A stretch of DNA of 13,555 nt from Thiotrichales bacterium HSG1 (GTDB taxonomy: Bacteria; Pseudomonadota; Gammaproteobacteria; Beggiatoales; Beggiatoaceae), in assembly GCA_030378125.1 (NCBI GenBank), contig JAUCGN010000028.1, positions 1-13,555 on the forward strand, read 5' to 3'. The notes under the pieces were generated by a model. That model was not told the origin of the DNA. It worked only from the letters and a program-made list of their open reading frames with translations, and did no database searches. Positions 1 to 10,893 of this stretch are shown one piece after another. The translations under genes were made by a program, and so were the position numbers. Position 1 is the stretch's first letter. Each line of letters starts with the position of its first letter.

Positions 1-68
1 GACTTCCTTTACTATATTTTCCATTCATCTTAATATAATAGAAATTTTGTCATCAAATGCAATATTTT

Positions 69-110
69 GACTGAAGTCTTTTTCCGTCTGGAAGACGGAG
101 GTTTTAAACC
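69..110 (+). repeat. 42-bp hairpin repeat, copy 1
   Basis: An inverted copy lies at 7949-7990 and matches at 41 of 42 positions. The core at 83-99 is a perfect 7-bp stem (TCCGTCT / AGACGGA) with loop GGA, and it is preceded by a mini-hairpin (GACT-GA-AGTC, 69-78). Weaker similarity to the other copy continues for about 20 bp past position 110. The CHAT reading frame becomes open at this repeat, after an in-frame TGA at 68-70. Seen directly; whether it moves by itself is unknown. Confidence 0.9.
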
Positions 111-112
111 AT

Positions 113-1936
113 TTGAGGGACTATAAAGAATTAAACGCCGTGTATATCAGCTTAGGAAAATGTCACCAAGCATTGGGTGAGTTTTCTGAAGCTGATAAAA
201 TGTACGAAAAAGCCTTAGATGGACTCATAGAACTAAATGAAAAAGGCCAAATATTATCTGACGAAATCAATAAACTCAGCACAATTATTGAATGGTACAA
301 ATCATCACAACGACCGAGTGGACACGATATTTCAGAAGCTTTTGAAACCGCCCTTAAAGGACTTGAATGGTTAGATCGAGTACTAAACCAAATCTCAGAT
401 ACCAGCAAATCAGATTTAGTAGAAAAAAACATCTACCTATATAGAGTATCGGCTGACTTTGCTCTACAATTCAAACAACCAGAACAAGCCTACATCTTCC
501 TTGAACGAAGTAAATCAAGAGTATTGGTTGAACAAATGCTGCGTGAACGCGCCGAGCCGGGTTCCAACGTTGATATAAACTTGCGCATCCAATACCAAAA
601 ACTTCGGGAACAATTGCGCCTACTCATCAACCAACTCGACACCTCAACCCCGACTGGCATAGCTGGCGACGGTACAACCCGCTTTTTCACACCCACCACC
701 CGCAGCATCGAACGTCGTCCCCAACAAACCGAACAACTCTTGCAAAAACAACAAATAGTAGAACAAGAACTAAAAAAAGTACGCGATGCCATAATTGAAC
801 AAGATGCAGCCTTTGGTGAAGCAATCCAACCACGCGCCCTAACCATTAACGAAGTCAAATCACTGATTCCAACAGATACCCTAGTTATTGCCTTCGAGCA
901 ACGTCCAGAATTCTTGTATCTCTACGCCATAACCACACAAGGCATATCAACACCCTTGCAAATAAATGTATCTTTACAGCAAGTTAATGAACGGATAGCA
1001 GTATTTCAAACTGAAATCACTGGAGAAAGAATAAAGAATCGAAAAACAGAACTAACAAATCTTAATCAATGCCTAGATAAATATTTAAAACAAGCATTTA
1101 CCCAACTAACAACCCAATTTCAACCCAAGCAGATAATCTTAATTCCCCATATTGGTTGGCACTTACTACCAATTCATTTGGTCAGTATAAATGACGAACC
1201 ATTAGCCATGCGTTATACTGTACGTTATTTACCCTCTCTACAGATTTTACGCTTAATTTCCGAACGCCCACCAGCGAATCAAGGCAAAGGCTGTATTATT
1301 GCAAATCCTTGGAGTGAAGCATTAGAAAAATTAATAGGTAAAGAACATGAATTAATCAGTGGCGAGCAAGAAGGCCATAAAGTTTATAAATTACGCACCC
1401 AAATAGATCAACTTCTAGTCCGTGAACAAGCAACCTCAACCGCAGTACGCCAAGCACTTGATAAAACACAACACAGCCATTTTTCGTGTCACGGTCATTT
1501 TGATGCAGACTTAACCAAAGCCGGATTGACATTAGCAGACTGTAAAGATTTGGTTGCAATGGAAATGTTCACCAGCATCCGTTTAGACAATCCCCGCCTA
1601 GTTGTCATGAGTGCCTGTGAAACTGCCCAAATAAAACCCACCCTCGCTGATGAGTACATGGGACTTAGTTCAAGCTTCTTATTTGCTGGAGCGCATAACG
1701 TCTTAGCCACTCTTTGGCAAGTTGATGACAATGCCACCCGCTTGCTGATAGAAGATTTTTATCAAGGCTTAAATGATGGACTATCACCAGTCAAAGCATT
1801 ACAACAAGCACAGCATCAACTACGCAACATGAGCGTAGAAGCAATATTAGCCCGTTCTCCTGAACAAACAATCACTCGAACATACAAAGATTCTTACTAT
1901 TGGGCAGGATTTGTATTGATTGGGGATGGAGAATAA
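113..1936 (+). CDS. TPR-CHAT caspase-like protease, probably 5'-truncated
   Basis: A cysteine peptidase-like protein of the CHAT (caspase HetF associated with TPRs) family. The first ~40 residues form one TPR hairpin. A helical region follows, including the stretch YIFLERSKSRVLVEQM typical of the TPR-to-CHAT linker, then a coiled coil around residues 210-235 and the CHAT domain from about residue 245 to the end. The catalytic dyad is visible: His460 in HFSCHGH and Cys502 in MSACETA. Relatives usually carry several TPRs before this point. Here the frame opens at a stop (68-70) and a repeat, the only available start is TTG at 113 or an internal ATG, and there is no ribosome site, so the N-terminus looks lost. 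Known relatives cleave a partner protein after an infection or stress signal; the partner here is unknown. The two following genes on the same strand are candidate partners. Domain call sure; start and present function unsure. Confidence 0.88.
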   Translation: MRDYKELNAVYISLGKCHQALGEFSEADKMYEKALDGLIELNEKGQILSDEINKLSTIIEWYKSSQRPSGHDISEAFETALKGLEWLDRVLNQISDTSKSDLVEKNIYLYRVSADFALQFKQPEQAYIFLERSKSRVLVEQMLRERAEPGSNVDINLRIQYQKLREQLRLLINQLDTSTPTGIAGDGTTRFFTPTTRSIERRPQQTEQLLQKQQIVEQELKKVRDAIIEQDAAFGEAIQPRALTINEVKSLIPTDTLVIAFEQRPEFLYLYAITTQGISTPLQINVSLQQVNERIAVFQTEITGERIKNRKTELTNLNQCLDKYLKQAFTQLTTQFQPKQIILIPHIGWHLLPIHLVSINDEPLAMRYTVRYLPSLQILRLISERPPANQGKGCIIANPWSEALEKLIGKEHELISGEQEGHKVYKLRTQIDQLLVREQATSTAVRQALDKTQHSHFSCHGHFDADLTKAGLTLADCKDLVAMEMFTSIRLDNPRLVVMSACETAQIKPTLADEYMGLSSSFLFAGAHNVLATLWQVDDNATRLLIEDFYQGLNDGLSPVKALQQAQHQLRNMSVEAILARSPEQTITRTYKDSYYWAGFVLIGDGE

Positions 1937-1985
1937 AATATTTTGAGTTATACTTAAATATACTTTACACTGTTATAAATAAGGA

Positions 1986-2002
1986 ATACCGCAGAGCGGT
2001 AT
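1986..2002. repeat. Short hairpin, ACCGC family
   Basis: Perfect 7-bp arms ATACCGC / GCGGTAT with loop AGA. The same TACCGC/GCGGTA arms recur in the hairpin at 8089-8110. It lies in the gap between the CHAT gene and the small helical gene, next to another hairpin. No T-run follows, so it is not a classical terminator. Confidence 0.75.
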
Positions 2003-2010
2003 ACTAGGAA

Positions 2011-2032
2011 TTCCCAACGAAGACGTTGGGAA
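2011..2032. repeat. Short hairpin, CCCAACG family, flanked by a direct repeat
   Basis: Perfect 9-bp arms TTCCCAACG / CGTTGGGAA with loop AAGA. The heptamer CTAGGAA occurs on both sides (2004-2010 and 2033-2039), as a target duplication or a repeat unit edge would. It is intergenic, about 40 bp ahead of the next start codon. Confidence 0.75.
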
Positions 2033-2071
2033 CTAGGAAAACAGGATTATAAAACTTACTGGAGATAAATA

Positions 2072-2377
2072 ATGAACTTACACAATAATATTCAAAGTTA
2101 TATCAAAGAATTACAAGAATTATTAAACGAAACTGATGAACAGAAATTAATAGATAAAGCTTATGTTAAATGGGGAGAAGATGACTCTCGTTATGAAGTT
2201 TTAGAACAGTTTATAGAATCATCGCAGGGAAGTAGCAGAACAATATCGCAAACAGTAGAAAAAGTTTATAATATTGGGAAAATTGATAATGCCAGCTTTG
2301 ACAGTTTCGATAAACCAGCTGACCCACCAGCAGATACAAAGCCTGATAGTGGTGGTCAAAACAAACCAGTTAAATAA
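2072..2377 (+). CDS. Small helical protein of the CHAT module, unknown function
   Basis: 101 residues, not recognised as a named family. The start is supported by GGAG at 2061-2064, seven bases before the ATG. Residues 1-50 are charged and helical (IQSYIKELQELLNE and onward). Residues 62-76 (a TVEKVYNIGKIDNASF stretch) look like a short beta hairpin of the kind that often ends the N-terminal adaptor domains of bacterial conflict proteins; this resemblance is from memory and weak. The last 25 residues are polar and rich in Pro, Asp and Lys, probably disordered. It sits between the CHAT protease gene and the membrane protein gene on the same strand, which suggests an adaptor, inhibitor or substrate role within that module. 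No signal peptide or membrane segment. Confidence 0.75.
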   Translation: MNLHNNIQSYIKELQELLNETDEQKLIDKAYVKWGEDDSRYEVLEQFIESSQGSSRTISQTVEKVYNIGKIDNASFDSFDKPADPPADTKPDSGGQNKPVK

Positions 2378-2382
2378 TTTTT

Positions 2383-2415
2383 AGACCTGACAGGTTTTGG
2401 AAACCTGTCAGGTCT
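2383..2415. repeat. 33-bp perfect palindromic hairpin
   Basis: 15-bp perfect arms starting AGACCTGACAGG, with a 3-nt loop TGG. It lies 5 bp after the stop of the 101-residue gene and 22 bp before the next start. No T-run follows the second arm on the plus strand, so it is better read as a REP-like element that may pause or protect the transcript than as a standard terminator. If transcribed, it would be by far the most stable hairpin in the window. Confidence 0.9.
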
Positions 2416-2437
2416 CTCAACTCCTATTACAAAAATA

Positions 2438-3874
2438 ATGAACCATCTAAACTACGAATTTTATTTCCTATTTCAAGTAACGTATAACGATACCAATGAA
2501 ATATGCCAAGAGCCTCTATTTTTTCCTAACAAAATTCAAAAAAATTTGCATAGCCTTCGTATTGATAAAGATAAAATCCTATTTCGTTATGCACCATCTA
2601 ACAAAGCTAAACTTAATGAATGGCAACAACATCTACAACAAGGCTGGAAACAGATAATAGATTGTTATCAAAATGATTTTAAGCCAGAAGCATTTATAGG
2701 CGTAGCTTTACTTATTCTTGATGAAACAGTAAACAAATATAAAATTAGTTGTAAAACAAATATTGGCACGGTTACTTTCCAACCAGCAATTAATTATAAA
2801 ACACCAAATGAAAAGTTTTTACTAAAAATAGCATCAAATGAACTGAAAGAAATACCACCAGCAACTTTAGAAGAATTTGAGCCACAATATCAACCAATAA
2901 CAAATTGTTATAACTGGCAAATTAAAATCTCTACACCAATCAGTTTAAAACCAATGGAACTTGGTGAAAACCACCATAATCCTATTTTTGCAGTTTATGG
3001 TTTAGCACATGGTAATTTACCTTCCGAAGCTGCAGATCAATTGCAAAATTTTTTATGCAGTGGCGATGTAGCACTGATGTGGCAAGTATTAACCCGTTTA
3101 ATAATGCAAAAATGGCAATTTGAACGTTTTGATATGACCGCTGCTAAATTACGACAGCAACTTGATTCTAAAAATGAAATTTATCAACAAATACCTGATA
3201 ACAATTTAAAATGTGCCAACGATAAAAAATTTGAAGCAGAATTGCATAATATTATGCGGCTAGATGCAGATGCCAAACAAGTTTTAGCACGATTGGATGC
3301 AGCTACAAAAACTTTGGAAATCAATCGCTATAATTTAGAAAGACATTTACATCGCAGCGAACAAGTTTGGCAATATTTAGACAAAACAGATAAAATCTAT
3401 TATTGGCAATTAACTTGGCAAAATGATACCGAAGTCCCTTTATTGGATAGCTTTGATTTAAATATTAACAATTTAAAAAATCATACCACTTACATTCAAG
3501 ACTCCTTAGCTTATTTAGATGGCATTCGTACTCGCTGGCAATTACACCTTGATGGACAACGTTTACAATACGAATCCAATATTCAAAAACTATTGTTTGT
3601 ATTAACATCTATTGCAGCATTCACTGGTGTAGTTGCTTTCATCACCCAAAATCCTGAAGACGTAGCTCTTTTATTAGGAATCTTTGCCGATAATCCACAA
3701 AAAATAACTCAAATAGGACATTTGTTATTAATCGGGATTAATTTACTGATTTTAATATTCTTTATACTGCCGTTTTTCTATTTATATTTAAAATCACGCT
3801 GGAAAAAATTTCATTGTTGGTTTAAGCAGTTGTTTCTCTCTAGTCCAATCATCAACCTGCATCGCCGCAAATAA
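2438..3874 (+). CDS. Two-helix membrane protein of the CHAT module
   Basis: 478 residues, no family recognised with confidence. Residues 1-230 look like a mixed alpha/beta soluble domain. Residues 230-380 are strongly helical and probably coiled coil (DAKQVLARLDAATKTLEI and onward). Two hydrophobic helices follow at about 384-402 and 428-450, joined by a short loop containing TQNPED, and then a basic tail. The order long helix, TM, short loop, TM resembles CorA-type transporters, but the GMN motif is absent, so I do not call it CorA. The last ~20 residues read antisense through the stub of the convergent ATPase gene, so the natural C-terminus may have been replaced. It follows the CHAT and small helical genes on the same strand; a membrane-acting effector or sensor activated by the protease is plausible inference. 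No clear Shine-Dalgarno precedes the ATG. Confidence 0.8.
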   Translation: MNHLNYEFYFLFQVTYNDTNEICQEPLFFPNKIQKNLHSLRIDKDKILFRYAPSNKAKLNEWQQHLQQGWKQIIDCYQNDFKPEAFIGVALLILDETVNKYKISCKTNIGTVTFQPAINYKTPNEKFLLKIASNELKEIPPATLEEFEPQYQPITNCYNWQIKISTPISLKPMELGENHHNPIFAVYGLAHGNLPSEAADQLQNFLCSGDVALMWQVLTRLIMQKWQFERFDMTAAKLRQQLDSKNEIYQQIPDNNLKCANDKKFEAELHNIMRLDADAKQVLARLDAATKTLEINRYNLERHLHRSEQVWQYLDKTDKIYYWQLTWQNDTEVPLLDSFDLNINNLKNHTTYIQDSLAYLDGIRTRWQLHLDGQRLQYESNIQKLLFVLTSIAAFTGVVAFITQNPEDVALLLGIFADNPQKITQIGHLLLIGINLLILIFFILPFFYLYLKSRWKKFHCWFKQLFLSSPIINLHRRK

Positions 3875-4204
3875 TTCCGAATCTTTAGGCACATGATTAC
3901 TAGCACATAAAGTTTCCGCTATATGCTGATAAAAACTATTTTCACGACTTTCTAACACATTATCACAAGACAAATAAATAACCACATATTTATCAGGCTT
4001 TCCAACTAAATTCTCCCAAACCTGAGAAAAACGATATAATAAACAACTCTTTCCCAACTTTTTATCACCAACAATATTAATACTAGTCGGCTGTGCAGCT
4101 TCCATTTGTGAAACAACATATTTAAAATCAACTTCACGCCCTATAAATGGGCCATCAATCTCAATCTTAGATGCCGCCACAAAAGGATTCGCTTCTATTT
4201 TCAT
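3794..4204 (-). pseudogene. N-terminal remnant of a STAND/AAA-type ATPase
   Basis: 136 residues keeping only the beginning of a P-loop ATPase. The entry motif NPF...GPFIGRE is followed by a P-loop GDKKLGKS (residues 46-53) and the second core strand YVVIYLSCDN. No Walker B, sensor or C-terminal recognition domain follows. The frame runs into the 3' end of the plus-strand membrane protein gene, and its last ~10 residues (ending TMKFFPA) are antisense of that gene, with a fortuitous stop. Full relatives are several hundred residues or longer. The start is well supported by GGAGAT seven bases before the ATG. STAND ATPases commonly act as signal-sensing switches in conflict systems, so this may once have belonged with the CHAT module. 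As it stands it cannot be a working ATPase. Confidence 0.82.
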
Positions 4205-4278: not shown

Positions 4279-7200
4279 TTAAGCCAAAACCGGAGCCAAC
4301 CACCTCTCAACTTCCTCCACAGTCATACCTTTACGTTTAGCATAATCTGCAACCTGATCTGATTCAATTTTACCTGTACCAAAATAGCGACTATCTGGAT
4401 GAGAAAAATACCAACCAGAAACTGAAGATGCTGGATACATTGCAAAGCTTTCCGTTAGGTTTATTTCAGCATTTTCATCCGGTTGCAATAACTCCCACAA
4501 AAGAGCCTTTTCAGTATGATCTGGACAAGAAGGATAACCAGCAGCAGGTCTAATTCCCTGATAACCTTCCTTAATTAATTCCACATTACTTAAATTCTCA
4601 TCTTTAGCATATGCCCAAAATTCTTTCCGTACCCTTTCATGCAATCTCTCTGCAAAAGCCTCCACCAATCTATCTGCTAATGCTTGCAATAAAATCACAT
4701 TATAATCATCATGTTGCTGTTTAAATAAATCTATCTGTCGCTCAATACCAATCCCAGCAGTCACCGCAAAAGCTCCCAAATAATCAGGATGTCCAACTGG
4801 AGCTATAAAGTCAGACAGACATAAATTTGGCTTATCTTTCTTTGGAATCTGTTGACGTATATGATGCAACGTGGTGGTAACTTTAGTTCGAGTATCATCA
4901 CTGTAAATAGCAATATCATCATCATTGATCATATTAGCTGGAAAGAAAGCAATAACACCTTTAGCTTGTAACCAGTTCTCAGCAATAATCATTTTTAACA
5001 TAGTTTTAGCATCATCAAACAACTTTTGAGCTTCAACTCCAACCTTGCTATCATCCAAAATTTGCGGATATTTACCAGATAAATTCCAAGTTCTAAAAAA
5101 TGGATTCCAATCAATATATTCCAACAGTTCTGCCAATGAATAATCAGTGAAAGTTTTTAATCCTAAAAAAGTTGGTTGTGGTGGGGTATAGTTTTTCCAA
5201 TCATCCCTAAATTTATTAGCTCTAGCCTGTTGGAGAGATAGCTGTTTACGTTGTTTTTTACCAGCTCTACGTTCTCTTATTTCAGCATATTCTGCTTTTA
5301 TTTCATTAGCATATTCTGCTTTAATATTAGAATCTAACAGCTTACGCACCACCCCAACTGCTCTTGACGCATCCAATACATACACTGCTGGATGGCTATA
5401 ATTAGGAGCAATTTTAATAGCAGTGTGAACTTTGGAAGTAGTTGCACCACCAATTAATAGCGGAATTTCAAACCCTTGACGCTCCATCTCTTTAGCAACA
5501 AACACCATCTCATCTAATGAAGGAGTTATCAATCCAGACAGCCCAATCGCATCACAGTTATGCTCTTTAGCTTTAGCAAGAATAGTATCGGCTGGCACCA
5601 TAACCCCAATATCAATCACTTCAAAATTATTACACTGCAATACTACAGTTACAATATTTTTACCAATATCATGGACATCGCCTTTAACCGTTGCCATCAA
5701 AACTTTGCCAGCACTGCTACTAGCTCCATCTTTTTCTGCTTCAATGAAAGGCATCAGATAAGCAACAGCTTTTTTCATTACTCGTGCTGACTTAACTACT
5801 TGAGGTAGAAACATTTTACCCGCTCCAAACAGGTCTCCAACAGTATTCATACCATCCATCAAAAGTCCTTCAATCACATGGAGAGGTCGCTCTGCTTTCT
5901 GTCTAGCTTCTTCAGTATCAACATCAATATATTCAGTAATTCCCTTCACCAAAGCATAAGATAACCGTTTTTCTACTGGCTCTTCACGCCATGCTGCTGT
6001 CTGTTCTTCAACCTGCTTACTACCTCCAGCTCTATATTTATCCGCTATTTCCAACAACCGATCAGTTCCATCTTCTCGCCGATTTAAAATAACATCCTCA
6101 ACTCTGTCCCGTAATTCTTCGGGTAGGTCTTCATAGATTGCTAACTGGCCCGCATTAACGATTCCCATATCCATACCAGCCTTGATTGCATGGTAGAGAA
6201 ATACCGAATGAATTGCTTCCCGAACTGGGTTATTGCCTCGGAAAGAGAACGATACATTGGATACACCACCAGAGATTAAAGCATGGGGTAAAGTTTGCTT
6301 GATTTCGGCAACAGCTTCAATAAAATCAACCGCATAGTTATTATGCTCTTCAATTCCAGTGGCAACAGCAAAGATGTTTGGATCAAAAATAATATCTTCA
6401 GGTGGAAATCCAACTTTCTCAGTTAAAATTTTATAGGAGTTAGTACAGATTTCAAGTTTGCGAGCTTTGGTATCGGCTTGTCCTTGTTCATCAAATGCCA
6501 TTAAAATGATAGCAGCTCCGTAGCGTTTGATTAAACTGGCTTTTTCGATAAATAAATCTTCACCTTCTTTCATACTGATGGAGTTTACGATAGATTTACC
6601 TTGCACGCATTTCAAACCAGCTTCCAGCACTTCCCATTTAGAAGAATCAATCATGATTGGAACTTTGGCTATATCTGGTTCGGTGGCTACTAAGTTTAAA
6701 AATTTAACCATCTCCACATTAGCATCAAGCAAGCCCTCATCCATATTAATATCAATGATTTGAGCCCCATTTTCTACCTGTTTACGAGCTACTTCTAAAG
6801 CTTCTTCATATTTCTTTTCTTTAATCAAACGCTTAAACTTGGCAGAACCAGTAACATTAGCTCTCTCTCCAACATTTACATACAATGAGTCTACATCAAT
6901 TGTACAAGGCTCCAAACCTGATAATCTACAAGCTATTGGAATTTCTGGTATTTTGCGGGGAGTACACTGCTCAACTGCTGTTTTGATAGCTTGAATATAA
7001 TCTGGAGTTGTACCACAACAGCCACCAACTATATTTAAGAAACCGCTATTAGCCCATTCCACAATTTCATTTGCCATGTTTTCTGGTGTTTCGTCAAATC
7101 CACCTAAATCATTGGGCAAACCAGCGTTGGGATGAGCGGAAATATAACAATCAGAAATTTTAGATAATTCAGCGATATACTGACGTAATTCTTTAGCTCC

Positions 7201-7929
7201 TAATGCACAGTTGAGACCAATTGACAACGGTTTAGCATGACGGAGAGAGTTCCAAAATGCTTCCACTGTTTGTCCAGAAAGAGTTCTCCCGGAAGCATCA
7301 GTGATTGTACCCGAAATCATAATTGGTAATTCGGTATTAAAATCAAGGAAATACTTTTGTACCGCAAATACTGCGGCTTTAGCGTTAAGAGTATCAAAGA
7401 TGGTTTCTATTAATAATACGTCAGCTCCACCATCGACTAAGCCTTTGGTTGCTTCATAATAGGCTTCTACCAAAGCATCGAAAGTTATATTACGAACACT
7501 TGGATCGTTAACATCTGGGGAAATTGAGCAAGTTCGGTTAGTTGGACCTAAAGTACCAGCAACAAAGCGTGGGCTGTCAGGAGTTGCTATAGAATCAGCA
7601 GCTTCTCTGGCTAGTTTAGCTCCGGCAAAGTTTAATTCATATACCAATTCCTCCATTTGGTAGTCAGCCATTGCTGTTACTGTACTACTAAAGGTATTGG
7701 TTTCAATTATATCGGCTCCAGCTTCAAGATATAAACTATGGATTTCTTTGATTATTTGTGGTTGAGTAAGTGACAGCAGATCATTGTTACCTTTTACATC
7801 ACATGGCCAGTCTTTAAACCGTTCCCCACGATAATCAGCTTCTTCTAGTTTATATCTTTGGAGCATCGTACCCATTGCTCCATCAAGGATTAGGATACGT
7901 TGTTGCAATAATTTTTTAATGTTTGACAT
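4279..7929 (-). CDS. metH: Cobalamin-dependent methionine synthase
   Basis: Transfers the methyl group of 5-methyltetrahydrofolate through cobalamin to homocysteine, giving methionine and tetrahydrofolate in the cytoplasm. 1216 residues, close to the 1227 of the E. coli enzyme and complete. Modules in order: homocysteine-binding barrel (about 1-325) with zinc ligands Cys241 (GLNCALG), Cys304 and Cys305 (GGCCGTTP); folate-binding barrel (about 345-630, with [11 protein letters not shown] and FDPNIFAV); helical cap and cobalamin domain (about 640-870) with the lower axial ligand His753 in DVHDIGKN; and reactivation domain (about 890-1216) with the S-adenosylmethionine-binding stretch [12 protein letters not shown] near 1127-1138. 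The ATG is preceded only by a weak GGGACA. About 20 bp upstream lies the 42-bp repeat, which would be in the leader RNA. No SAM or cobalamin riboswitch was recognised. The STAND ATPase stub lies 74 bp downstream on the same strand. Confidence 0.98.
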
Positions 7930-7948
7930 TTTTTATTGTCCCATAAAT

Positions 7949-7990
7949 GGTTAAAAACCTCCGTCTTCCAGACGGAAAAAGACTTCAGTC
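7949..7990 (-). repeat. 42-bp hairpin repeat, copy 2
   Basis: Inverted relative to copy 1 at 69-110, with one mismatch. Its hairpin core is at 7960-7976. It ends about 20 bp before the metH start codon, and similarity with copy 1 continues weakly right up to that codon. The two copies bracket the CHAT module plus metH as a 7.9-kb inverted-repeat pair. Confidence 0.9.
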
Positions 7991-8008
7991 AAAATTTATA
8001 TAAAAATC

Positions 8009-8541: not shown

Positions 8542-9387
8542 TTATTGCTCCTTAAGATTTTGTATTTGTTCTAAAGATAAATTTGTTGCTTGAGCTATTT
8601 GTTCGTCTGATAGCAATCCAGTAGATAATAAATTAATGGCAGTTTCTTTTTTTATTGTATCTGTAATTTCATATTTAACTTCTTGCCTAACTTCCTTTTT
8701 AACTTCTTGCCTAACTTCCTTCTTAAGCTCTTGCCTTATTTGCTCAATCCCATATTCATCAATCATTACAGCTCGTTCCTTAGGAGTAATTAGGTCTTTC
8801 TCTATCAATCCAAAAATTTGCTGAATTTCAGGAGAAGAATAATTTAACTCATCAACTTGTTCATCCAAACTATCTTCGATTGCTTCTAGCCATTCATGAT
8901 ATTGTTTAGGAGTGACTGTTTTATCTAAATATTTAGGACAAATATAGATAACTTTATGAGGAATTTCTCCTATTGGATTACCTTGTAAATCTTTTGGGTC
9001 AAAATCTATAATAGCCACATCTTTTTTATGTTTATCTCCTGAAGTCAATATAACAAAAGTAAACACTCGTAAATCAGGTTGATAATTATCTGAACTAGCT
9101 ATTTGTTCTAATAAAGCCACGCAATGATAATGTAAAAAACGATGATAATGATCTGGAAAACGTACATGTTGAATTTCAACTATTATTCGATTTTTCTTAT
9201 CTTCTGCGTACAAGTCAAATTTAACTTCTACATTGCCAATAGTTGGAGTGTAAGTTTTATCTGTTTCTACCTTGTCAATTTCTATTTCAATATCCAAGAA
9301 ATCTCGCACAAAAGCTGTAAAAATTTCTGGAACACTGAATGCTTTTTTGAAAATCACATCGTATCGTAATGGGGCAACTTGTTTCAT
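8542..9387 (-). CDS. Rpn-family PD-(D/E)XK nuclease / putative transposase, paralogue B
   Basis: 281 residues of the Rpn (recombination-promoting nuclease, PDDEXK_2) family, DNA endonucleases reported to raise recombination and proposed to aid transposition. The nuclease core covers about residues 8-170. The motif residues are Asp58 (KFDLYAED) and Glu71-x-Gln73 (VEIQH), the E-x-Q form usual for this family, so the active site looks complete. A charged coiled-coil linker at 216-247 contains an exact double of KKEVRQEV, made by a 24-bp tandem repeat at 8677-8724. The C-terminal 30 residues (NLLSTGLLSDEQIAQATNL) form a helix-turn-helix-like tail typical of the family. The ATG is three bases after the stop of its paralogue, so translation is probably coupled. 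The 3' end is 42 bp from the MITE at 8252-8499. Confidence 0.92.
   Translation of the reverse strand: MKQVAPLRYDVIFKKAFSVPEIFTAFVRDFLDIEIEIDKVETDKTYTPTIGNVEVKFDLYAEDKKNRIIVEIQHVRFPDHYHRFLHYHCVALLEQIASSDNYQPDLRVFTFVILTSGDKHKKDVAIIDFDPKDLQGNPIGEIPHKVIYICPKYLDKTVTPKQYHEWLEAIEDSLDEQVDELNYSSPEIQQIFGLIEKDLITPKERAVMIDEYGIEQIRQELKKEVRQEVKKEVRQEVKYEITDTIKKETAINLLSTGLLSDEQIAQATNLSLEQIQNLKEQ
8677..8724 (-). repeat. 24-bp in-frame tandem repeat in the Rpn linker
   Basis: Two adjacent 24-bp units (8677-8700 and 8701-8724) differing at one base encode the doubled KKEVRQEV octapeptide of the coiled-coil linker. A partial third unit may follow. The upstream paralogue has a different lysine/glycine/isoleucine-rich repeat at the same place, so the linker changes by repeat slippage while the nuclease core stays nearly the same. 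Confidence 0.85.
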
Positions 9388-9390
9388 AAA

Positions 9391-10239
9391 TTACTTACCA
9401 TTTTTTAAATCTTGTACTTGCTTTAAAGATAAATTTGTTGCTTGGGCTATTTGTTCTTCTGTTAAAGTTCCAATAGATAATAAATTAAGAGCAATATCTT
9501 GGTTAGCTTGTTGTTTTCCTTCTTTAATACCTTTTTTTATGCCTTTTTCTATACCTTTTTTCATAACTTTTTCTGTTATTTCTTGCTTAATTTGTTCAAT
9601 TCCATACTCATCAATCATTATAGCAAGCTCTTCAGGGGTTACTTGGTCTTTTTCTATCAGTTTGAAAATTTGTTGGATTTCAGGGGAGGTATAATGAGAT
9701 TCATCAACTTGTTCGTCTAGACTGTCTTCAATAGCTTCTAACCACTCATGATATTTATTTGGAGTAACGGTCTTATCCAAATATTTAGGACAGATATAAA
9801 TAACTTTATGAGGAATTTCCCCTATTGAGTTACCTTGCAAATCTTTCGGGTCAAAATCTATGATAGAAACGTCTTTTTTATGTTTATCACCAGAAGTTAA
9901 AATAACAAAGGTAAATACTTGTAAATCAGGTTGATAATTACCATGAGTGGCCACTTGTTCTAACAAAGCAGCACAGTGATAATGTAAAAAACGATGATAA
10001 TGGTCTGCAAATCGTACATGTTGTATATCAATGATGATACGGTTTTTCTTATCTTCGGCATATAGATCAAACTTAACTGCAACTTTACCAATTGGAGGAG
10101 TGTAAGTTTTATCTGTTTCTACTTTGTCAATTTCTATTTCAATATCCAAGAAATCTCGAACGAAAGCTGTAAAAATTTCTGGTACACTGAATGCTTTTTT
10201 AAAAATCACATCGTATCGTAACGGGGCTACTTGTTTCAT
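9391..10239 (-). CDS. Rpn-family PD-(D/E)XK nuclease / putative transposase, paralogue A
   Basis: 282 residues, nearly identical to the following gene over the first ~215 residues, so the two arose by tandem duplication. I chose the ATG at 10239 because the protein then begins MKQVAPLRYD exactly like the paralogue; a TTG five codons upstream is also open. Asp58 is kept, but the catalytic Glu71 of the paralogue is Asp here (IIDIQH), which may reduce or abolish cleavage. The linker holds KKGIEKGIKKGIKEG, unlike the KKEVRQEV repeats of the neighbour. The HTH-like tail (NLLSIGTLTEEQIAQATNL) is conserved. A hairpin at 10250-10267 overlaps the ribosome site. It lies 36 bp after the upstream nuclease-like gene, same strand. 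Confidence 0.9.
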   Translation of the reverse strand: MKQVAPLRYDVIFKKAFSVPEIFTAFVRDFLDIEIEIDKVETDKTYTPPIGKVAVKFDLYAEDKKNRIIIDIQHVRFADHYHRFLHYHCAALLEQVATHGNYQPDLQVFTFVILTSGDKHKKDVSIIDFDPKDLQGNSIGEIPHKVIYICPKYLDKTVTPNKYHEWLEAIEDSLDEQVDESHYTSPEIQQIFKLIEKDQVTPEELAIMIDEYGIEQIKQEITEKVMKKGIEKGIKKGIKEGKQQANQDIALNLLSIGTLTEEQIAQATNLSLKQVQDLKNGK

Positions 10240-10249
10240 GATAACTATT

Positions 10250-10267
10250 TCCAAAATAAATTTTGGA
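10250..10267 (-). promoter_or_regulatory. Hairpin overlapping the Rpn A ribosome site
   Basis: Perfect 7-bp stem (TCCAAAA / TTTTGGA) with a 4-nt loop in the 36-bp gap between the nuclease-like gene and Rpn A. On the minus strand the second arm contains the GGA that is the only Shine-Dalgarno candidate for the ATG at 10239, so folding would hide it. The structure is seen in the sequence; a regulatory effect is inference. Confidence 0.5.
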
Positions 10268-10275
10268 TTCTATTT

Positions 10276-10893
10276 CTAATAAAAATCCACAATAGTTTGT
10301 AATGCTCCTAATAATTTATTAGGATTATCAATATAATACTTAATATTATCTGTATTGATTATATCTTTCTCAAGTTTTAAAAATTGCCATATTTCACCTG
10401 TTGTAACTACTCCAAAAATGGTAGTAATTGTAGTTTCTTCCATATAATTAAATTCCCTTGCTCCAACCATTTGAGCTATACATTGTCCAAGACTTCTATC
10501 AATTATATTTCTCTTAGCTTCAACTAGGCAAAAAATTGGTGTATCTATGGTTGTAGATTGAGGATTTCTAGTTAATATAAAATCACATTCTCCGTTTAAA
10601 TTTCGTTGTTTATCAACTTCTAAATCTTCACCAGAAAATAGAGCAATTTTATTACTATTACGCTGTTTTAATTCAAATAAAAATGGAGCTACTATACCTT
10701 CCGAGCGTGCCTTTTCAGATTTTAAAGGAATTTGTTTAGTAATGGCTAATGTGGTTTGTAACCAATCACTTATTTTAATATCTACAACTTCTATAAATAA
10801 ATCAGTATTAACTTCAGTTAATTCAAAAGTTTGTTTGACTTCTTTAAAAGAAAATTGACTATATGGCATTTTTCTAATTTTAAATCCTGACAA
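10276..10893 (-). CDS. Small PD-(D/E)XK nuclease-like protein, unknown family
   Basis: 205 residues, cytoplasmic. The middle shows a restriction-endonuclease-type core: GECDFILTR with Asp104, then FCLVEAKR with Glu125-x-Lys127, then a helix with Gln141 (GQCIAQMVGARE) in the place where many such nucleases have a conserved Gln. A final strand pair (IFGVVTTGEIWQFL) completes the fold. The protein is not an Rpn member. Start uncertain: TTG at 10893 has AGGA four bases upstream, while the ATG at 10869 (MPYSQFSF) has no ribosome site. It is first of three same-strand nuclease-fold genes, probably co-transcribed. Function unknown: it could be a solitary restriction-like enzyme or part of a mobile cassette. 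Similar small proteins are scattered in repeat-rich genomes, from general knowledge. Confidence 0.75.
   Translation of the reverse strand: MSGFKIRKMPYSQFSFKEVKQTFELTEVNTDLFIEVVDIKISDWLQTTLAITKQIPLKSEKARSEGIVAPFLFELKQRNSNKIALFSGEDLEVDKQRNLNGECDFILTRNPQSTTIDTPIFCLVEAKRNIIDRSLGQCIAQMVGAREFNYMEETTITTIFGVVTTGEIWQFLKLEKDIINTDNIKYYIDNPNKLLGALQTIVDFY

Follow-up and report, generated by a model that had tools for sequence, protein, structure and literature searches.

CHAT proteases with dedicated partners, such as Craspase and the CHAT-gasdermin pairs, count among the bacterial systems that most closely parallel cell death by caspases. In the gasdermin pairs, a CHAT protease is encoded beside a membrane-acting gasdermin, and Csx30 is a partner protein of Craspase. 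BovA constitutes the single-gene Borvo system, and CATRA systems include a small component. The available parts of the respective reports describe Csx29 of the type III-E Craspase as a TPR-CHAT protease (PMC9729208, PMC10028731) and CATRA as a caspase-dependent ternary conflict system (PMC8195603). In immunity associated with clustered regularly interspaced short palindromic repeats (CRISPR), the accessible part of a further report describes a membrane domain resembling CorA that lies beneath a unique N-terminal domain, and presents the CorA-like scaffold as a second-messenger-gated CRISPR effector (PMC10600005). Here we describe a stretch of 13,555 nucleotides from Thiotrichales bacterium HSG1 (GenBank contig JAUCGN010000028.1), analyzed at its whole length and referred to as the window, which makes up an entire contig (C190) of a Beggiatoaceae genome that is 63% complete at 2.22 Mb. 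It carries a protease-truncated copy of a module that recurs in Beggiatoaceae and combines a CHAT protease, a small protein and a membrane protein with two transmembrane (TM) helices. Our analysis suggests a protease-controlled membrane-damage or alarm system; no description of the trio was found among the titles and beginnings of abstracts of top-ranked papers, in a search that left most subscription journals outside its coverage.

Results

The three genes recur together

All three genes named in a preliminary description of the window are present as open reading frames (ORFs) on its plus strand (Table 1). The nearest named relative of the window genome, Candidatus Halobeggiatoa sp. HSG11, harbors the identical trio in identical order (locus L035, G010:C32), with a CHAT protein of 1783 amino acids (aa), a small protein of 88 aa and the membrane protein. 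The ratios of nonsynonymous to synonymous substitution rates (dN/dS) between the two genomes are 0.24 for the shared part of the CHAT gene, 0.15 for the small gene and 0.12 for the membrane gene, indicating that these are not chance ORFs. The trio genes are under purifying selection.

Thirty distinct loci of the membrane protein were counted from 33, with three weak ones (G011:C83, G025:C22, G031:C30) dropped. Sixteen of these 30 loci have a CHAT gene or remnant within 2.1 kb, and 18 have one within 5 kb, compared with random expectations of 0.94 and 1.60 derived from 307 CHAT matches in 81.4 Mb (16 genomes), an enrichment that assumes independent loci and uniform CHAT density (the stretches G011:C88 and G012:C225 share 99.9% identity along 6.8 kb). 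CHAT genes were detected with a profile covering lineage B (see below), whose members are missed by phmmer with the window CHAT. Of the 18 nearby CHATs, three (G019:C57, G010:C133, G011:C88) are represented by a fragment or by a front part cut off at a contig end, and half (9/18) share the strand of the membrane gene. The small gene is found on the same stretch in 19 loci, and the CHAT gene tracks it: 17 of the 19 loci with a small gene have a nearby CHAT, as opposed to 1 of the 11 without (Fisher p 2e-5, with near and far labels assigned by reading individual search results). When the duplicate and seven loci judged to be cut by contig ends are left out, the same test on 22 loci gives p 0.003. 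Reciprocally, small and/or membrane genes, remnants included, are carried by 6 of 10 contigs with a lineage-A CHAT (E <= 1e-60) and by 16 of 21 contigs with a lineage-B CHAT (E <= 1e-58). Neither gene is present on the two examined lineage-B contigs with matches weaker than E 1e-58 (G016:C156, G027:C87), and in three genomes of one genus a lineage-A CHAT has neither partner. Co-occurrence across genomes had been set beforehand as a test of the proposed conflict module. The three-gene association is well supported, and the idea of a conflict module is largely borne out by it.

The membrane family is found in 17 of 42 genomes of the family Beggiatoaceae. Beyond these, its occurrence was covered by one two-pattern scan of species genomes, in which 12 of the 14 confirmed loci belong to Beggiatoaceae/Thiotrichaceae-type records; the six organism-named database relatives are likewise of this type. 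A phage origin was considered and rejected, as no relative is encoded in any of 30 pattern stretches from viral contigs. Several membrane-protein copies (among those at L037, L038, L055 and L058-L062) are split across frames or interrupted and others are intact, a pattern that either conflict genes or assembly errors would produce. In one clade, five loci (L039-L042, L044) encode the membrane protein without a small gene or CHAT, although three of the five are close to a contig end; L043 of the same clade has both. Since the L043 protein groups with CHAT-less ones, the presence of a CHAT at a distance of 4.7 kb may be a coincidence. Defence-type neighbours were seen at two CHAT-less loci, AAA_21 and DUF4276 genes at L045 (2503-4205) and AAA_15 and DUF4435 genes at L041 (5589-7588).

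Two separate CHAT lineages occur with the same partners

A tree built from 48 CHAT domains gives full support to lineage A (10 domains) and to lineage B (18 domains). Both had been predefined by similarity, so that their monophyly is expected and the informative point is solely that background CHATs separate them. CHAT-B is split with full support from CHAT-A together with the background CHATs, indicating that two CHAT lineages share one pair of partners. In the membrane-protein tree, neither the CHAT-A-adjacent nor the CHAT-B-adjacent proteins form one clade (3 and 5 changes).

At one locus, L133 of genome G041, a small-like gene (E 2.5e-4), a gene for a four-TM protein and a lineage-B CHAT gene follow one another on a single strand. 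The four-TM protein (310 aa, 9076-10277 of that stretch) has four hydrophobic segments and matches neither a Pfam family nor the membrane-family profile; it may represent a second family of membrane partners. The membrane partner thus looks swapped in this single genome, while the small gene and the protease stay together, which suggests that the membrane protein is an exchangeable output or anchor.

The protease gene of the window is truncated at its 5' end

The first ORF matches the CHAT family (PF12770) with E 1.2e-49 and 169.8 bits, far above the curated cut-off of 24. Both residues highlighted in the preliminary description are present, H460 in an SCHG and C502 in an SACET context, and a catalytic-type His and Cys are aligned in all ten seeds from CHAT lineages A and B. 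Judged by sequence, the window CHAT is a predicted peptidase with a catalytic-type dyad. The label TPR-CHAT holds for its CHAT part; as to TPRs, there is one weak repeat below the cut-off (TPR_1, E 7e-4).

The ORF of 607 aa, previously taken as complete, turned out to be part of a longer protein. It corresponds to residues 1173-1783 of the 1783-aa HSG11 CHAT (68% identity), and the DNA homology to the latter begins only at base 125 of the window (blastn). Since bases 1-124 are a dispersed repeat, neither the start codon nor the length of the ORF is native. This repeat contains a GGAGG shortly upstream of the TTG at 113, and one of its seven further copies is located at 7935-7995 of the window. 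The missing 1172-aa front of the protease was not found elsewhere in the window genome, where, at 63% completeness, an empty search proves nothing. The repeat at the junction and the missing front indicate either a repeat insertion or an assembly break within the repeat. In the HSG11 protein, the front has 11 hydrophobic segments, all within residues 195-827, followed by weak TPRs.

The small protein is a conserved family

The small protein belongs to a family of 30 proteins including the window's own. Its N-terminal part of about 52 residues is conserved, the linker behind it varies, and the protein ends in a short tail that reads QNKPVK in close relatives. Of the small helical protein in the preliminary description, the conserved N-terminal part looks helical, on the basis of its sequence pattern only. 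Some stretches (L043, L053, L066) carry two copies of the domain. Matches of the 101-aa protein in Pfam, NCBIfam and PADLOC all stay below threshold; one of 16 family members touches EAD4 without significance (E 0.022). Matches of the family in the PDB comprise a designed helical bundle (E 1.5e-4) and otherwise unrelated proteins at E >= 0.02. The small-domain profile matched no CHAT or membrane ORF in the examined locus stretches, and thus no homotypic fusion was seen there.

Compared with its HSG11 ortholog, the window protein has an insert with the motif TISQTVEKVYNIGKIDNASF. Similar stretches were observed in two adjacent HSG11 genes on another contig (G010:C234; L067 5277-8275; E 0.002 and 0.057), where they are located at the end of a DUF4062-like protein and at the start of the NB-ARC-TPR protein next to it. 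This arrangement resembles bacterial amyloid signalling motifs (BASS), for which the available part of the source describes a short motif shared between the effector C-terminus and the N-terminus of a neighbouring NLR (PMC8086366).

The membrane protein has a predicted CorA-like build

Relatives of the 478-aa membrane protein were retrieved by single sequence (38 proteins) and by profile (44), giving a family of 45 including the window's own. The two C-terminal membrane helices of the preliminary description are predicted by hydropathy and follow long helices in an AlphaFold2 model (mean predicted local distance difference test score, pLDDT, 76.6). A [KR][KR]xxC pattern is found near the end of 30 of the 45 proteins. 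The large N-terminal domain is conserved and contains invariant residues; neither Foldseek nor VIA gave a convincing fold for it, and N-domains of CorA were not among the matches listed. Homology to the HSG11 protein ends at base 3825 (blastn) or 3835 (profile), where an ATPase fragment on the opposite strand begins, indicating that the last ~12 residues of the window protein are not ancestral. The protein has no match in Pfam, NCBIfam or PADLOC, and the family has no sequence match in the PDB. Membership in a housekeeping transporter family, which would have spoken against the original idea, was rejected, as no such family was matched in Pfam, NCBIfam or a CorA profile search.

Foldseek searches returned CorA or its relative CmaX as 37 of the 38 best matches (best E 1.5e-4), among them six Thermotoga maritima mutant entries which we take to be CorA. 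According to the predicted model and hydropathy, a long stalk helix (residues 334-404) runs into TM1 and is followed by TM2 at the C-terminus. A loop modelled with low confidence (residues 315-333) precedes the nearly invariant Pro334-Leu335. The membrane protein is thus predicted to resemble the stalk and the two TM helices of a CorA channel below an N-terminal domain of unassigned fold. Pfam CorA (PF01544) is not among the 25 of 26 families listed for 24 members of the membrane family (E up to 10), and the GMN motif is present in none of the 45 proteins, fragments included. At E <= 1e-5, PF01544 has no match in eight of ten genomes searched, all eight of which carry the membrane family; the two matches in the remaining genomes (G013:C174, G039:C1) lie away from membrane-family loci. 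CorA membership was rejected, with no Pfam match, no GMN motif and an hhalign probability of about 1% or less. The CorA-like build is kept as an analogy without detectable sequence kinship to CorA.

Layout and neighbouring genes of the window

The region between the small and the membrane gene (2375-2437) contains a long perfect hairpin (AGACCTGACAGGTTT...AAACCTGTCAGGTCT, -24.4 kcal/mol) that is not followed by a T-run. The ATPase fragment overlapping the end of the membrane gene is probably a neighbour and not part of the module. The module adjoins metH (4279-7929) in the window, and an ORF with a metH-like beginning adjoins a lineage-B module on the opposite side in G012 (L046 1-1402); this placement perhaps marks an insertion hot spot. 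Further downstream are two adjacent, highly similar PDDEXK_2 genes of the PD-(D/E)XK transposase family (8542-9387 and 9391-10254). ORFs beginning like them are found on the stretches L134 and L136.

Table 1. Features of the module and its immediate surroundings in the window.
Feature	Position	Strand	Basis or remark
Dispersed repeat replacing the CHAT 5' part (or marking an assembly break)	1..124		7 further full or partial genome copies, E <= 1e-13
CHAT protease gene, lineage A, 5'-truncated, 607-aa ORF from TTG	113..1936	+	Pfam CHAT; homology to HSG11 CHAT
CHAT domain	1061..1927	+	PF12770 match, 172 bits
Catalytic-type His460 codon	1490..1492	+	Aligned in seeds of both CHAT lineages
Catalytic-type Cys502 codon	1616..1618	+	Aligned in seeds of both CHAT lineages
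Small protein, 101 aa	2072..2377	+	Alignment; family of 30 proteins; dN/dS 0.15 vs HSG11
Insert of ~20 residues in the small protein, motif TISQTVEKVYNIGKIDNASF	2240..2299	+	Absent from HSG11 ortholog
Two-TM membrane protein, 478 aa	2438..3874	+	45-protein family; AlphaFold2 model
N-terminal beta-rich domain, residues ~1-198	2438..3031	+	AlphaFold2 model
TM helix 1, residues 385-403, ending a 71-residue helix (334-404)	3590..3646	+	Hydropathy and model
TM helix 2, residues 429-447, then basic KKxxC-type segment	3722..3778	+	Hydropathy and model
P-loop (STAND/NACHT-like) ATPase gene fragment	3794..4204	-	TniB 3e-4, NACHT 0.005, both below cut-off; overlaps membrane-gene end

Discussion

The explanation that we favor, at a probability a little short of even, is that the trio forms a module in which proteolysis regulates a membrane effector, similar in kind to CHAT-gasdermin or Craspase and with a membrane partner that is new. 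A trigger would be sensed by the front part of the CHAT protein (TPRs and, in HSG11, also membrane-embedded segments), and the small protein would dock the protease and the membrane protein to each other through its conserved domain and flexible tail. The activated CHAT could then cut the membrane protein or stop restraining it, so that the CorA-like stalk and the two TM helices would come together to form an opening or another kind of lesion in the membrane, by which the cell would be arrested or killed. By analogy with the known systems, we infer docking by the small protein, cleavage by CHAT, lesion-forming activity at the membrane and a role in phage defence. A broader version, in which CHAT switches a CorA-like effector via the small docking protein and this effector is exchangeable for an unrelated one, would amount to modular, non-gasdermin membrane killing in two CHAT lineages; we regard it as possible but doubtful.

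The main rival reverses the order of events: the two-TM protein, together with the small protein, would hold CHAT at the membrane as a sensor or anchor and release or activate it upon ion or membrane stress, and CHAT would be the output that cleaves other host proteins. We consider this unlikely but far from negligible, as the HSG11 CHAT has membrane segments of its own, and the large N-terminal domain of the membrane protein is conserved, some of its residues being invariant. The five loci without a small gene or CHAT (L039-L042, L044) also point in this direction, since the membrane protein may act there without the protease, although three of them are near contig ends and L043 of their clade has both genes. 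The apparent replacement of the partner by an unrelated protein at L133, on the other hand, is as compatible with an effector as with an anchor. That the genes share no function at all and are merely juxtaposed in repeat-rich, CHAT-rich genomes is improbable and already disfavoured. CHATs are indeed abundant in these genomes, they occur on mixed strands and with many broken copies, and a dispersed repeat flanks the window copy; 18 nearby CHATs where 1.6 would be expected, their co-segregation with the small gene and the occurrence of the same partners with two CHAT lineages all argue against chance.

The preliminary description had also likened the layout to CATRA. A CATRA or other EAD-type conflict system with the small protein as a death-like adaptor would fit the combination of a caspase-like protease and a small protein in what has been termed a ternary system (in the available part of PMC8195603), as well as the single contact with EAD4. 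Neither CATRA nor CATASP is, however, among the listed Pfam matches of the two protein families (24 membrane-family members, with 25 of 26 matched families listed, and 16 small-family members), from which weak matches had been filtered and in a Pfam copy in which the presence of these models is unconfirmed, and the examined stretches revealed no homotypic fusion. The likeness to CATRA was not upheld and the CATRA reading was dropped for want of profile support among these matches; we give the whole EAD-type explanation only a small chance. A similarly low probability is assigned to a developmental role in the colonies or filaments of giant sulfur bacteria, i.e., regulated cell death other than in phage defence. 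The confinement of the organism-named relatives, and of most of the confirmed loci, to Beggiatoaceae/Thiotrichaceae-type bacteria would agree with it, as would the many metacaspases reported for a Thiomargarita genome in the available part of the source (PMC4853749). Patchy presence (17/42 family genomes) and broken copies look more like conflict genes, and defence-type neighbours were seen at L045 and L041, though both are CHAT-less.

If protease-gated membrane killing by the module is true, a second, unrelated membrane partner would suggest that such killing arose more than once, and a CorA-like scaffold could be linked to proteolysis. The module moreover offers a specific, testable role for some of the CHAT genes that are so greatly expanded in these sulfur bacteria (16 genomes with 307 matches).

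Comparison with known systems

With CATRA, the module has in common a caspase-superfamily peptidase, here CHAT, and a set of several genes; it differs in having no CATRA or CATASP profile among its listed matches. Like other CHAT (TPR-CHAT) proteases of PF12770, its protease has the domain, the catalytic-type His and Cys and, in relatives, a TPR-type front. In contrast to these, the front of the HSG11 protein has its 11 hydrophobic segments ahead of the TPRs, and the partners are new. BovA models of PADLOC touch the CHAT region only (E 3.3e-7 for the window CHAT and 3e-9 for a lineage-B CHAT), and unlike BovA the module has two dedicated partners beside CHAT. Craspase likewise combines a TPR-CHAT protease with dedicated partner proteins, but the NCBIfam Csx29 model scores 69.2 bits against the window CHAT, below its cut-off of 300, and the two partners in our module match no family; no search was aimed at Cas7-11. 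The CRISPR-associated CorA effector has, as far as the available part of its report goes, the same build as our modelled membrane protein (PMC10600005), which differs from it by its link to CHAT proteases and by the absence of detected sequence kinship to CorA. The CHAT-gasdermin pairs share with the module a CHAT gene adjoining that of a membrane protein, which is the natural candidate effector. No gasdermin family is among the Pfam matches of the trio or the membrane family, although bacterial gasdermins can escape Pfam. In place of a gasdermin, the partner is a conserved, two-TM helical protein, and a third, small gene completes the module.

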